A stretch of DNA of 64,000 nucleotides from Mariniflexile gromovii (GTDB lineage: Bacteria; Bacteroidota; Bacteroidia; Flavobacteriales; Flavobacteriaceae), in NCBI RefSeq assembly GCF_017814435.1, contig NZ_JAGJCB010000002.1:186001-250000 (forward strand). Reading direction: 5' to 3'. The notes under the pieces were generated by a model that made no database searches, was not told the origin of the DNA, and saw only the letters and a program-made list of their open reading frames with translations. Positions within the stretch are counted from its first letter, which is position 1, and each line of letters starts with the position of its first letter. The position numbers and the translations under genes were made by a program. Of this stretch, positions 55,858-60,041 are shown in pieces.

Positions 55858-56730
55858 TTATTGGATAATAAGCTTAATTTCCTTTCTATAGTTTGAGGCA
55901 CTTTTACCGGTAATTTCGTTAAACTGCTTGTTAAAATGTGAAAAATTATTAAATCCACATTCAAAACAAATATCAGCAATACTTTTTTGGCTTTCATTAA
56001 GCAATTTGGTAGCATGCACCACCCTATATTCATTTACTAATTGTGTAAATGTTTTACCGGTAGCTTTTTTAAAGTATCTACAAAATGCTGGCACTGTCAT
56101 ACTTACCTCATCTGCTATTTCATCTAAAGTAATATGATTTTGAAAATTCTTATTAACGTATTTAAAAATGATATCAATTTTAGAACTATCCTGTGGTTCT
56201 GTTTCAAAAGCAAAACCATCAGCATTTAACAATGTATAATCTTCCGTGGTTGCTAAATAGTTTAAAATATCTAAAAATTTTAAAACACGTTTTAAGCCTT
56301 GGTGCTCTAATAGTTTGTCAATTTTTGGTCCAATTACCTTTTTGGTTTCAACCTTAAAACGAATACCTTGTTTAGCTCTTTCAAACAACGATACAATAGG
56401 CGCCATTTCTGGAACGTTTAAAAAATCGTCTCCTAAAAAGTTCGATTTAAACTGTACTGCAGTTTCTGTACCATTCGCTGTTAACCTATCAGTAAATCCA
56501 TTGTGTGGCAAATTAGATCCAATAAGTATTAATTGACTGTTATTAAAATAGGATAAATGATTTCCTATGTGAGTTTTACCTTGTCCTTTATTTATATAAA
56601 TAAGCTCTAATTCTGGATGAAAATGCCAGTAAGCGCCATCTTTATCTATCGTTTCTACATGTTGTTTAACTAATATAGAACTTCCGAAACTTGGGGTAAC
56701 TTTTCTAAAAGTTGGTTTTTTATTAATCAT
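55858..56730 (-). CDS. AraC-family transcriptional regulator
   Basis: 290 residues. An N-terminal cupin-like sensor domain (about 25-120, GAYWHFHPELELIYINKGQG) is followed by the AraC HTH domain at about 188-285, with FQNHITLDEIADEVSMTVPAFCRYFKKATGKTF and the second helix pair CFECGFNNFSHFNKQF. The cupin suggests a small sugar or metabolite ligand. It is divergent from the tandem secreted paralogs downstream (57.4-58.9 kb), whose promoters carry a shared 17-bp box. Control of those genes by this regulator is a guess from position only. Confidence 0.9.
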   Translation of the reverse strand: MINKKPTFRKVTPSFGSSILVKQHVETIDKDGAYWHFHPELELIYINKGQGKTHIGNHLSYFNNSQLILIGSNLPHNGFTDRLTANGTETAVQFKSNFLGDDFLNVPEMAPIVSLFERAKQGIRFKVETKKVIGPKIDKLLEHQGLKRVLKFLDILNYLATTEDYTLLNADGFAFETEPQDSSKIDIIFKYVNKNFQNHITLDEIADEVSMTVPAFCRYFKKATGKTFTQLVNEYRVVHATKLLNESQKSIADICFECGFNNFSHFNKQFNEITGKSASNYRKEIKLIIQ

Positions 56731-56833
56731 ACAAATTTATTTAAAGCAAAATTACAATATATTATTATGCAAACATAACTTTAATTACCCCTATTGTATG
56801 TTATATTAACATTACATCCATTTAACATTAAAT

Positions 56834-56850
56834 TAACAGTTAATATAGCA
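56834..56850 (+). promoter_or_regulatory. Conserved 17-bp box, copy 1
   Basis: TAACAGTTAATATAGCA. It matches the boxes at 57329 and 58203 at 14 or more of 17 positions and ends exactly 45 nt before the TAnnTTTG element at 56896. Confidence 0.7.
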
Positions 56851-56895
56851 TATAAAGTGGTCAAATCTGTTGTTTTTAAATAAATACATCCAGTG

Positions 56896-56903
56896 TATAT
56901 TTG
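56896..56903 (+). promoter_or_regulatory. -7 element of the gene-less copy
   Basis: TATATTTG, a match to TAnnTTTG, at the same distance from the 17-bp box as in the two gene-bearing copies. Confidence 0.6.
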
Positions 56904-56909
56904 TACTGT

Positions 56910-57078
56910 TGATATTTAGTAAATATAATTACTGATTAAGCAACCAAAAATAGAAAAGTAAAATACTATATAATATAACTCGAACAACAAAGAGTTTACA
57001 GAAATTCATTAATAATTAGTTTAATGTCTTATTTAGTTTAGTTGGTAAAGTGAGCTGTGGTGGCTCACTTTTTTTTTG
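56910..57078 (+). ncRNA. Candidate small RNA from a gene-less paralog copy
   Basis: The segment runs from just after a good -7 element to a strong terminator, about 170 nt, and has no ATG-started frame of note. Its last part, from 57002 to 57052, is identical over 51 nt to the 3' end and 3'-untranslated region of the gene at 57429-58025. The last codons are present but with a one-base insertion (frameshifted). It is either a decayed gene whose body was deleted or a transcribed small RNA. Confidence 0.4.
57047..57078 (+). terminator. Terminator, copy 1
   Basis: AAAGTGAGC pairs with GCTCACTTT around a 7-nt loop and is followed by a T run. The second copy has AAAGTGGGC/GCCCACTTT, a compensatory change that keeps the pairing. 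Confidence 0.85.
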
Positions 57079-57328
57079 CCTAAACTTTATCTTTTTCTAT
57101 TGAAGTACACATCTTACTCCTTAATATATAGAATATCATATTTATTCTTTTCTTATCTAAGGTATTACGTTTTCAATCTAATCGATTTACTAATAATCAT
57201 GTTCTATCTCTATTTTGAACATCGTTTTCATTTTCAATTTTAAAAAAATTCTGAGGCTTTTTTGCAGAACTATTCAAATTTAACACAGACATATGCTATA
57301 TTAACTTTACATAATGTTAATATTTTAT

Positions 57329-57345
57329 TAACAGATAATTTAGCA
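57329..57345 (+). promoter_or_regulatory. Conserved 17-bp box, copy 2
   Basis: TAACAGATAATTTAGCA, ending exactly 45 nt before the -7 element at 57391 of the first paralog gene. Confidence 0.7.
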
Positions 57346-57390
57346 CACATTTCGGTCAAGATGAATGTTTTTTCAGATGAAATACCAGCA

Positions 57391-57398
57391 TATATTTG
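57391..57398 (+). promoter_or_regulatory. -7 element of the first paralog
   Basis: TATATTTG, 30 bp before the ATG at 57429. Confidence 0.65.
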
Positions 57399-57428
57399 CC
57401 ATGTATTAACGTTATAAAAAAACGAATT

Positions 57429-58025
57429 ATGAAAAACGTAATAAACAACTCAAAAAAAGGATTCTTAATGGTAACATTATTTGCTACCTTGTTAAGTTTC
57501 GCAAATGAAGGATCATTCTCAACAATTAAAGATGACGCTAAAAAAACGGCTCTAACATTAACTAATGTAAAAGCAGGTAACCAATTATATATAAAGGATG
57601 CCAATGGTGTTATATTATATAATGAACTTATCCAGAAATCTGGTATATATGCTAAAGGTTTCGATTTAACATCTTTACCTGAAGGAGAATATGTTTTTGA
57701 ATTGGATAAAGATTTAGAAACTACAACAATTCCATTTACAGTAAGTTTTAAAAACATTGTAATAAATAGAAACAAAGAAACTACAAGTTACAAGCCTTAC
57801 ATGTCTCAAAAAGGAAACTTACTATTTGTTAGTAAATTGTCTCCAAACTTAGGAGCAGTAAAAATTAGCGTTTATGCCGATAACAACAATGATTACGAAT
57901 TACTTCACTCAGAAAAAATTGAAGGTTTACAATCTGTAGAAAGAGCTTATAAATTAGAAAAAGGAAATTATAAAATAGTAATTAACTCTGATAATAAAGA
58001 GTTCACAAAATTCATTAATAATTAG
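57429..58025 (+). CDS. Secreted beta-rich paralog 1, unknown function
   Basis: ATG 57429 is chosen because the identical start MKNV(I/L)NNSKKG(F/I)LMVT is kept in the next paralog. The 198-residue protein has a signal peptide ending SFANEGSF. It then has two beta-rich domains: residues about 30-115 (NVKAGNQLYIKDANGVILYN, LPEGEYVFELDKDLETTTIPFTV) and about 120-198 (NLGAVKISVYADNNND). The first resembles the Ig-like fold of T9SS-associated or DUF3244-like domains, but there is no sorting signal. It is about 50% identical by eye to the next gene. Its mRNA ends in a terminator shared with the gene-less copy upstream. Confidence 0.85.
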   Translation: MKNVINNSKKGFLMVTLFATLLSFANEGSFSTIKDDAKKTALTLTNVKAGNQLYIKDANGVILYNELIQKSGIYAKGFDLTSLPEGEYVFELDKDLETTTIPFTVSFKNIVINRNKETTSYKPYMSQKGNLLFVSKLSPNLGAVKISVYADNNNDYELLHSEKIEGLQSVERAYKLEKGNYKIVINSDNKEFTKFINN

Positions 58026-58052
58026 TTTAATGTCTTATTTAGTTTAGTTGGT

Positions 58053-58083
58053 AAAGTGGGCTGTGGTGGCCCACTTTTTTTTG
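58053..58083 (+). terminator. Terminator, copy 2
   Basis: AAAGTGGGC pairs with GCCCACTTT around the same 7-nt loop as the copy at 57047, followed by T8. Confidence 0.88.
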
Positions 58084-58202
58084 CTCTAATTTAATTATAG
58101 AGTATCATTTATTTATTATCCATTTCCTAAAGTATTTTCTTAAATATACATATTTAACCCCAATATATTCTATTTTAATTTAACACAAAATTGATGTAAA
58201 AA

Positions 58203-58219
58203 TAACAGATAAAATAGCA
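58203..58219 (+). promoter_or_regulatory. Conserved 17-bp box, copy 3
   Basis: TAACAGATAAAATAGCA, ending exactly 45 nt before the -7 element at 58265 of the second paralog gene. Confidence 0.7.
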
Positions 58220-58264
58220 TATAAATACATCAATATCAGTGTTTTAATAACTAAAAAGCGGTTG

Positions 58265-58272
58265 TACATTTG
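58265..58272 (+). promoter_or_regulatory. -7 element of the second paralog
   Basis: TACATTTG, a match to TAnnTTTG, 28 bp before the ATG at 58301. Confidence 0.62.
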
Positions 58273-58300
58273 TATTGTAAAACGTTAAAAAACCCAAATT

Positions 58301-58915
58301 ATGAAAAACGTATTAAACAACTCAAAAAAAGGAATCTTAATGGTAACAATGTTTGCTACCTTGTTAAGTTTCGCAAATGAAGTATCATTATTTAAAATTG
58401 AAAATGATGCTGAAAAGACCTCCATTACTTTAAACAATGTAAAGCAAGGAAACCTATTATCTATTAAGGATAATAATGGTGTTGTACTATATAAAGAACT
58501 CATTCAAGAATCTGGAACCTACACGAATGGTTTCGATTTAACCACACTTCCAAATGGTGGTTACATTTTTGAACTTGATAAAGATGTAGAAATACAAACA
58601 ATCCCTTTTACAGTATCAGTAAACACAGTTACTTTTAACAAAGAAATGGAAGCTACCATTTTTAAACCAGTAACAAGAGTTAAAGGCGATGTAGTTTATG
58701 TATCAAGATTGTCGTTAAACAAAGCTCCAATGGAAATAGCTATTTACCGTACAGACACTAATAACACTTTTAGCAACGAAGAACTTATTTATTCTGAAAC
58801 TATTGAAAATACAGAAAACACTAGCAGAATTTATAAGCTAACAGGCAGAAACCATGGTAATTACAAAATTGTTTTTACTACTGAAGAGCGTGTTTTTACT
58901 ACAGAAATTAACTAA
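58301..58915 (+). CDS. Secreted beta-rich paralog 2, unknown function
   Basis: 204 residues, with the same signal peptide (MVTMFATLLSFANE) and the same two-domain layout as the preceding gene: SITLNNVKQGNLLSIKDNNG and LPNGGYIFELDKDVEIQTIPFTV, then a second beta domain with an extra loop (YRTDTNNTFSNEELIYSE). Similar proteins occur as tandem families in Flavobacteriaceae. No catalytic motif is visible, so a binding or structural periplasmic role is likely. It ends at a bidirectional terminator shared with the radical SAM gene. Confidence 0.85.
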   Translation: MKNVLNNSKKGILMVTMFATLLSFANEVSLFKIENDAEKTSITLNNVKQGNLLSIKDNNGVVLYKELIQESGTYTNGFDLTTLPNGGYIFELDKDVEIQTIPFTVSVNTVTFNKEMEATIFKPVTRVKGDVVYVSRLSLNKAPMEIAIYRTDTNNTFSNEELIYSETIENTENTSRIYKLTGRNHGNYKIVFTTEERVFTTEIN

Positions 58916-58967: not shown

Positions 58968-60041
58968 TTAAAATAGTTTTAGCTGACCATCTTTAAACTG
59001 CTCATGCAATGGGGTGTTTAACTTAGGCATCACCTTATCTTTAAAATATTTTTGTCTCGCCAATTTTACAAGATTATTGATTTGTTCGGCAATTTTTCCT
59101 TCACCGCACATTCTGGTTCCGTAACGACTATCGTTTAAAGTTCCGCCGTGGCAACTTTCAATTTGATGCAGCACTTTTTCTGCTCTATCGGGCATGGTTT
59201 TGTGAATCCAATCGGAAAAAATTTCTCCAATGGCACCATTAAGTCTTACGATAGTATGTGCTATTCCTAAGGCACCATTTTCAGAAGCTGCTTTTGCTAA
59301 AGGCAATATTTCATGACTGTTTATAGATGGAATAATGGGTGCCAACATCACATTTACAGGAATACCATTATCACTTAAAGTTTTTACAGTTTCCAAACGC
59401 CGTTTTATGGTAGCAGTTCTAGGTTCTAAAACACGTCTGGTTTCTTCTGATAGCGAAGTAATTGATACATTTACCCCTATTAAATTGTCTTTTGAAAGCT
59501 CTTTTAAAACATCCAAATCCCTCAAAATCAAAGCATTCTTTGTAATAATGGCAACGGGGTGTTTGTATTTTAAAAACACTTCCAAACATTGTCTGGTAAT
59601 TTCAAATTGCTTTTCGGCAGGTTGGTAACAATCGGTATTACCAGACATTACTATGGGATGCGCTTGCCAACTTTTCTTTTTCAATAAGGCTTCCAAAAGT
59701 TTTGGCGCATCTTTTTTTACCATAATGCGACGCTCAAAATCCAAACCAGCACTATAACCCCAAAATTCATGACTGTTTCTCGCATAACAATAAATACACC
59801 CATGTTCGCAACCTTGGTAGGCATTCATGGAATAGGCCATACCAATATCCGGACTTTCAACTTTATTGACGATGGTTTTTGGAAACACCTCTAGATAAAG
59901 TGTTTTGTTTTTATCGCTTTCTTCTCCTTCTTTATGGCAGAATTCTAAAAAATCATCACGCATGTCGTGGCTTAATTCGAAGAATTTATTGGGTACATTA
60001 AGCTGAGCACCACGGCCTTTTATGGTAGATTTTGAATCCAT
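58968..60041 (-). CDS. PA0069-family radical SAM protein (SplB-like)
   Basis: 357 residues. The radical-SAM cluster-binding CxxxCxxC motif is in CEHGCIYCYARNSHEF near residues 76-84. This family is marked by the preceding SPDIGMAYSMNAYQG and the following GLDFERRIMVK. Its members resemble spore photoproduct lyase but are found in non-sporulating bacteria, and the reaction is unknown. It is monocistronic, with its stop just past the shared terminator. Confidence 0.92.
   Translation of the reverse strand: MDSKSTIKGRGAQLNVPNKFFELSHDMRDDFLEFCHKEGEESDKNKTLYLEVFPKTIVNKVESPDIGMAYSMNAYQGCEHGCIYCYARNSHEFWGYSAGLDFERRIMVKKDAPKLLEALLKKKSWQAHPIVMSGNTDCYQPAEKQFEITRQCLEVFLKYKHPVAIITKNALILRDLDVLKELSKDNLIGVNVSITSLSEETRRVLEPRTATIKRRLETVKTLSDNGIPVNVMLAPIIPSINSHEILPLAKAASENGALGIAHTIVRLNGAIGEIFSDWIHKTMPDRAEKVLHQIESCHGGTLNDSRYGTRMCGEGKIAEQINNLVKLARQKYFKDKVMPKLNTPLHEQFKDGQLKLF

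Follow-up and report, generated by a model that had tools for sequence, protein, structure and literature searches.

A conserved, exactly spaced promoter element beside an AraC-family gene of Mariniflexile gromovii and its predicted small-RNA output

Introduction

The stretch of DNA considered here, 64,000 nucleotides of Mariniflexile gromovii (Bacteroidota, Flavobacteriaceae; contig NZ_JAGJCB010000002.1 of assembly GCF_017814435.1, positions 186,001 to 250,000 of the forward strand), is referred to below as the window. It carries an AraC-family gene and, divergent from it, an array of three units that share a 17-bp promoter box. Two of the units encode paralogous proteins, called paralog A and paralog B in the following; the unit next to the AraC-family gene, unit 1, appears to contain no gene at all. 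The array raises the question of which regulator acts on the boxes and why a unit without a gene should possess a complete promoter. In our judgement the locus is likely to represent a dedicated, locally encoded module of Flavobacteriaceae, in which the AraC-family protein acts on inverted operator arms and the output is of two kinds, including a trans-acting RNA. The coordinates of all features are collected in Table 1; the paralogs and the divergent AraC-family gene lie where a preliminary description of this DNA, made from the sequence alone, had placed them.

Table 1. Features of the AraC-family locus in the window (positions are those of the window)
Feature	Position	Strand	Basis or remark
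AraC-family regulator, divergent from the three units	55858..56730	-	HTH_18 in the C-terminal part; cupin-like N-terminal part (weak)
Predicted -7 element, AraC gene (TAATTTTG)	56747..56754	-	TAnnTTTG match
Inverted operator arm, unit 1	56797..56810 (core 56799-56810)	-	arm scoring; 44 nt from the AraC -7 element
17-bp box, unit 1	56834..56850	+	exact match; in 6/6 genus genomes; operator arm 56839-56852
Conserved stretch with TGTTTT at its end, where a -33 element would stand	56851..56876	+	site consensus and matched strings
-7 element, unit 1 (TATATTTG)	56896..56903	+	TAnnTTTG match
Predicted small RNA, about 168 nt	56910..57077	+	start placed about 7 nt past the -7 element, end at the T-run (both predicted)
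Conserved RNA module and terminator hairpin, unit 1	56997..57077	+	identity 0.94; model hit 56974-57076, 116 bits
Inverted operator arm, paralog A	57292..57305	-	arm scoring
17-bp box, paralog A	57329..57345	+	exact match
-7 element, paralog A	57391..57398	+	TAnnTTTG match
Paralog A	57429..58025	+	signal-peptide-like N-terminus (by eye, no predictor); two modelled beta-sandwich domains
RNA module at the 3' end of the paralog A mRNA	57981..58082	+	model hit 126 bits; overlaps the last codons and the TAG stop
Inverted operator arm, paralog B	58166..58179	-	arm scoring
17-bp box, paralog B	58203..58219	+	exact match
-7 element, paralog B	58265..58272	+	TAnnTTTG match
Paralog B	58301..58915	+	terminator-like hairpin at the 3' end; module sequence missing

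The promoter element

The box, TAACAGNTAANNTAGCA, has three exact matches in the window and none in 100 shuffled versions of it, and in all three units a gap of 45 nt separates it from an element of the form TAnnTTTG, just as the preliminary description had stated. TAnnTTTG by itself occurs 115 times in the window (expected 114.66). This is chance level, and the evidence therefore lies in the combination of box and -7 element. Promoters recognised by the primary sigma factor of Bacteroidota have TAnnTTTG at -7 and TTTG at -33. The promoters of the units possess the -7 element, and at the position of the -33 element their consensus reads TGTTTT instead of TTTG.

The element is not confined to the window. 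When 199 genomes of the family, representing 198 genera and nearly all from different genera, were searched for the box followed by a gap of 42-48 nt and TAnnTTTG, 33 sites were obtained in 23 genomes (22 of the 198 genera). The gap was exactly 45 nt in every one of them, and the reversed control gave no site. All 33 lay upstream of a gene of the paralog family or of a gene-less unit; two such paralog copies (in G077 and G173) were located away from the AraC gene. The earlier argument that the equal spacing is hard to explain by chance and points to a shared activator site is thus supported, and the box has survived the comparison with related species that had been proposed as a refutation test. 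A looser collection, in which TAnnTTTG was required no more than 3 nt off its expected place, comprised 115 sites, or 111 without near-copies; the gap was exactly 45 nt in 101 of these 111. In the consensus of this collection the sequence is conserved from a position near -37 as far as the -7 element, and TGTTTT stands within this part, 19 nt ahead of the -7 element.

Within the genus, the full element was found 17 times in six genomes with up to 3 mismatches allowed (control: 0), always in the expected units. Each genome had three copies except G003, which had two and in which a second paralog was not found. Since these six genomes held no site outside the three expected units, the promoter set looks like a closed one rather than a wide regulon, and the further sites that would, according to the preliminary description, have supported a regulon were not found there. 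In G004 unit 1 and paralog A are separated by some 3 kb of other sequence (L023 615-3697), and both boxes are intact.

The shared operator and the AraC-family regulator

The box turned out to be one arm of an inverted pair. Comparison of the sites with their own reverse complement placed the best pair of 14-bp arms at -37 to -24 and +5 to +18 relative to the start of the box, with a score of 5.4; the highest score among 100 column-permuted controls was 4.7. Measured between 12-bp cores and -7 elements in the divergent region, the distance is 45 nt for the box and unit 1 and 44 nt for the other arm and the AraC gene. Because one arm of this shared operator is so placed towards the promoter of the regulator itself, the AraC gene is likely to be autoregulated. 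The arrangement could be followed through 57 AraC loci with 53 different AraC sequences, a few genomes being represented twice. A box was present 95-130 nt from the AraC start codon in 55 of them, at 101-107 nt in 50 of the 55, and both loci without a box in that range belong to the same single genome. In 52 of these 55, CAAANNTA, the TAnnTTTG element on the AraC strand, precedes the first box by exactly 87 nt.

The regulator itself belongs to the AraC/XylS family by its helix-turn-helix domain (HTH_18, 77.5 bits, cut-off 33.6). Cupin_2 scored 16.9 bits, below its cut-off of 27.2, and NCBIfam gave partial matches only, the best of them to AryK and RhaS and far under the cut-offs. Orthologs, defined by an E-value of at most 1e-100, were present in all six genus genomes and in 93 of the 199 family genomes, among them all 23 with the exact element. 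Among the genomes that lack the exact element, the AraC-ortholog loci that were read had diverged boxes. Forty further loci with AraC identities of 52-78% were chosen for such reading. In 36 of them a gene of the paralog family is divergent from the AraC gene, as judged by our own profile at E-values up to 1e-3, with some weak scores and some short proteins among the matches. A box-like stretch was found at 88-124 nt in 35 of the 40 by a lenient test that allowed up to 9 substitutions with TAnnTTTG no more than 3 nt from its place and for which a chance rate was not computed. In two of the four loci without a paralog (L253 and L273), what comes after the box or its arm is a gene-less stretch in which TTAGTTAGTTTG or AAGTTTAGTTTAG precedes a terminator-like hairpin; these stretches look like distant versions of unit 1. 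Since the divergent arrangement of arm and -7 element is kept in distant relatives, the case for the AraC protein, already named as the nearest candidate regulator in the preliminary description, is strong but indirect.

Unit 1 and the RNA module

Unit 1 adjoins the AraC gene in all six genus genomes and has kept its promoter element in each of them. No open reading frame of eight or more codons is common to the six units. In two of these genomes the paralogs are about 50-55 kb distant, and unit 1 still stands beside the AraC gene with promoter and module intact. The same holds for the position of unit 1 in G137, whose single paralog found is some 110 kb distant and keeps a box with one mismatch.

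What is conserved in unit 1, apart from its promoter, is its last 80 nt or so, which contain ATTCATTAATAATTAGTTTAATGTCTTATTTAGTTTAGTTGGTAAAG and a terminator hairpin. This module had a mean pairwise identity of 0.94 among the six units, compared with 0.80 in the promoter element, 0.52 in the leader, 0.36 in the downstream sequence and 0.86 in the AraC gene; the corresponding means for 28/29 loci with distinct AraC sequences were 0.87, 0.71, 0.29, 0.29 and 0.77. The module is more conserved than the coding DNA of AraC, while leader and downstream flank decay. Unit 1 is therefore not merely gene-less, as it had been described; it is best read as a predicted small-RNA gene.

The same module of about 80 nt forms the 3' end of the paralog A mRNA. 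This common module, the inverted upstream arm and the stretch extending to TGTTTT are additions to the preliminary description. A covariance model was built from 52 modules, 23 of them gene-less and 29 following a paralog, with four copies without a recognised terminator omitted; both modules of the window belong to this training set, to which the scores in Table 1 are to be related. Searched under strict filters, with 19 candidates scored per genome, the 199 family genomes yielded the module in 34 (33 of the 198 genera), and in 31 of the 34 it was situated at this type of locus. The matches in G068, G172 and G181 are weak (E-values 1e-4 to 0.009), lie elsewhere and are probably due to chance.

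Constraint on the module extends into the coding sequence. Among filtered reading frames, 22 of 25 paralogs with the module end in TAG, as against 4 of 43 without it (Fisher p 7e-11), and in the module-bearing frames phenylalanine is encoded by TTC at 22 of 22 positions in the last five codons versus 74 of 229 in the body (Fisher p 1e-10); neither p value is corrected for relatedness. Because of this bias towards TAG and TTC near the end of the frame, selection on the last codons seems to operate at the nucleotide level. In the stem of the terminator three pairs were changed on both sides. The number of UUUAG repeats in the module differs between species.

Some loci depart from the usual structure. 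L204 (G177) has three modules behind the AraC gene and no paralog before the contig end, and one paralog, situated elsewhere in the genome, is interrupted by an internal stop. In L251 (G011) the box is followed by a degenerate beginning of the module (ATTCATTAATTAGTTAATGTCTTAATC) and then by other sequence, the usual terminator being missing; this is perhaps a lost unit. Judged by eye, the first unit of L259 (G158) seems to contain a short paralog-like frame with a GTG start and ends in TAGTTAGTTAG and a hairpin that resembles a terminator; in appearance it stands midway between a paralog and a unit without a gene.

Interchangeable sources of the module

The first unit behind the AraC gene has no gene in 33 of the 57 loci; in the rest it is a paralog, which bears the module in 13 loci and lacks it in 11. 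In eight genomes (G041, G054, G056, G075, G129, G137, G144 and G179) the one module detected is gene-less; G174 would be a ninth case and is truncated by a contig end. Conversely, the sole module detected in G024, G039 and G130 follows a paralog. The source of the module is thus interchangeable between the gene-less unit and the mRNA of a paralog, which is best fitted by an RNA that would act in trans from either source. On a tree of AraC sequences the label "gene-less" requires 7 changes, at least 5 of which are forced by well supported branches; this tree cannot separate gain from loss, and it leaves both a single and a repeated origin of the gene-less units compatible with the data. A more far-reaching reading would be that in many genera the source of one small RNA toggles, under a single AraC-type regulator, between the 3' end of a secreted-protein mRNA and a stand-alone gene born from that mRNA gene when its coding part was lost. 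We regard this as possible but rather doubtful.

The paralogs

Paralogs A and B are 57% identical. The structural model (mean predicted local distance difference test score, pLDDT, 78) shows two beta-sandwich domains behind a signal-like N-terminal stretch, the latter modelled with low confidence, and the paralogs are probably small secreted two-domain proteins. A fold search with paralog A gave generic beta-sandwich matches only, including the C-terminal domain of RgpB, with a best template modelling score of 0.33, and no sequence relatives were found in the PDB at E-values up to 1. DUF3244 (PF11589) was rejected for both paralogs at 18.6 and 19.3 bits, under the curated 25. Paralog B resembles a type 9 sorting domain weakly (16.3 bits, cut-off 23), which is only a lead. 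The copy number of the family differs between species, and L187 (G089) combines one AraC gene with six paralog-family matches, one of them weak. Beyond paralog B lies a gene for a radical SAM protein of the PA0069 family (58968-60041; 475 bits, cut-off 360), which in relatives, too, is often found at the far end of the array.

Comparison with known RNAs and regulators

Neither this part of the window nor 16 other loci gave a match to any Rfam family at its gathering score. BTnc049 (RF04179) aligned weakly over its full length with unit 1 (25.6 bits and E 0.15, gathering score 81.9), and did not match in the 16 other loci; in a whole-genome search with this model, in which 150 of 1300 candidates were scored, unit 1 was absent from the hits. 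The L20 leader (RF00558) gave 24.7 bits with the paralog A module, 20.8 with unit 1 and 30.3 with the module of L044 (curated 58.7). Since the module contains UUUAG repeats, a protein with an RNA recognition motif (RRM) was suspected as a partner. At E 0.001 RRM_1 matched none of 17 candidates from the genome of the window (4.28 Mb, 52 contigs), and the control searches in Bacteroides ihuae and Synechococcus elongatus were positive. Among the literature matches listed, judged by title and beginning of the abstract and with most subscription papers outside the scope, none dealt with this element or this RNA.

The organisation of the locus recalls araC-araBAD and rhaSR-rhaBAD of Escherichia coli, in which a regulator with cupin-like and helix-turn-helix parts is likewise divergent from its supposed targets and shares an operator with them. 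The paired half-sites of about 17 bp are a further likeness, those of RhaS and RhaR being inverted as well. In contrast to these systems, the supposed targets here are small proteins and a small RNA, and the promoters have the Bacteroidota -7 element.

With the small RNAs derived from mRNA 3' ends (review PMC9438474), the paralog A mRNA has in common a conserved 3' end with its own terminator, the last 80 nt or so being under constraint at the nucleotide level. Unlike those RNAs, it has a counterpart in a stand-alone gene with the same promoter element, and in the eight genomes named above this gene is the only source detected. GibS and FopS of Bacteroides, with RbpB (PMC11697453), offer a parallel as Bacteroidota small RNAs that occur in several copies; the present RNA differs from GibS and FopS in lacking both a detectable RRM protein and an Rfam match at the gathering score, the letters of FopS not having been compared.

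Proposed mechanism and alternatives

We propose that the divergent AraC-family protein binds inverted arms of the type GnTAAnnTAGCA in each of the promoters. It would activate the three units rather than repress them, because an arm is situated at about -60 and the -33 region has TGTTTT instead of TTTG. The output would be twofold: small, probably secreted two-domain proteins, and the RNA module, which may come from the stand-alone unit 1 or from the terminal part of the paralog A mRNA, with transcript ends as predicted here, and would act in trans.

Binding by another conserved regulator, the AraC gene being an incidental neighbour, would accord with the inverted arms, since AraC-family activators mostly use direct repeats, RhaS and RhaR being exceptions. 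We think it unlikely, because the spacing to the AraC gene and its -7 element is fixed in most loci, because the neighbourhood is kept down to 52% AraC identity, and because further sites, to be expected of a global regulator, were absent from the six genus genomes. Another explanation regards unit 1 as a functionless, decaying paralog whose 3' end is kept similar to that of paralog A by gene conversion. Signs of such a descent can be seen in G163 (L044), where ATGAAAAAC occupies the place of the paralog start and is followed by a stop after six codons, and where an unusual GCGGGC terminator is common to both copies of the module; the changes of the label on the AraC tree fit as well. Gene conversion cannot, however, keep the gene-less copy where there is no donor, and in eight genomes none was detected; in the two genus genomes with distant paralogs the possible donor is remote from a unit whose promoter and module are intact, and all six genus genomes have retained the promoter element of the gene-less unit, which makes this explanation improbable.

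The module could also be a mere efficient terminator or stabiliser of mRNA 3' ends, with unit 1 insulating the paralogs from the AraC promoter. This is suggested by its strong, covarying terminator hairpin, by the best Rfam E-values, which belong to sub-threshold models of AU-rich, hairpin-ended RNAs such as the L20 leader, and by the plain terminator-like hairpin that paralog B has in the same array. Yet the near-invariant part takes in the AU-rich sequence preceding the hairpin as well as the final coding bases, neither of which a terminator needs, and unit 1 has a full promoter element of its own and persists without a paralog close behind it; we therefore give this explanation little credence. 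Very unlikely, finally, is a role of the RNA as a decoy titrating a factor whose site of action is the mRNA 3' end of paralog A. Unit 1 and paralog A do carry the same module under the same type of promoter, and a variable number of UUUAG repeats is what binding arrays show. A decoy makes little sense, however, in the eight genomes without a detected module-bearing paralog, where there would be nothing to protect, and the suspected RRM factor was not found in the genome of the window, whereas the control search found one in Bacteroides ihuae.

Several observations weigh against a trans-acting RNA under AraC control. The exact element is present in only 23 of the 93 genomes with an AraC ortholog. 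The module alignment contains no covarying pair in the internal stem of the RNA, and the stand-alone gene is dispensable, since the first unit is a paralog in 13 + 11 of the 57 loci. As the filters were strict and G144 and G056 are incomplete (75% and 88%), second copies of the module may have been missed. The search for targets was likewise unsupportive. In a search for antisense sites one 17-mer, allowed up to 2 mismatches, had 62 matches in the six genomes, 12 of which were the module itself, and the remaining 50 compare with 44 in the reversed control. A site common to five genomes lies on the coding strand, in the same sense as the RNA (three copies were read), of a gene which we take to be pgk; another, just upstream of what is presumably rplA in two genomes, was left as chance level. 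Pairing with the 5' regions of AraC and the paralogs gave mean z values of 0.28 to 0.87 (controls 0.54 and -0.29).

Implications

It is our impression that the regulators, operators and small RNAs of Flavobacteriaceae have been little studied. One locus here yields a regulator, its probable operator, whose geometry is exact across dozens of loci, and a conserved RNA that matches no Rfam family. Since there are genomes with mRNA-borne copies of the module, with stand-alone copies or with both, the origin of small-RNA genes from mRNA 3' ends becomes testable. If the source of the RNA does toggle between mRNA and stand-alone gene, the family would offer a natural series of the birth of small-RNA genes from mRNAs. 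As a promoter system for these bacteria the locus is compact and self-contained.

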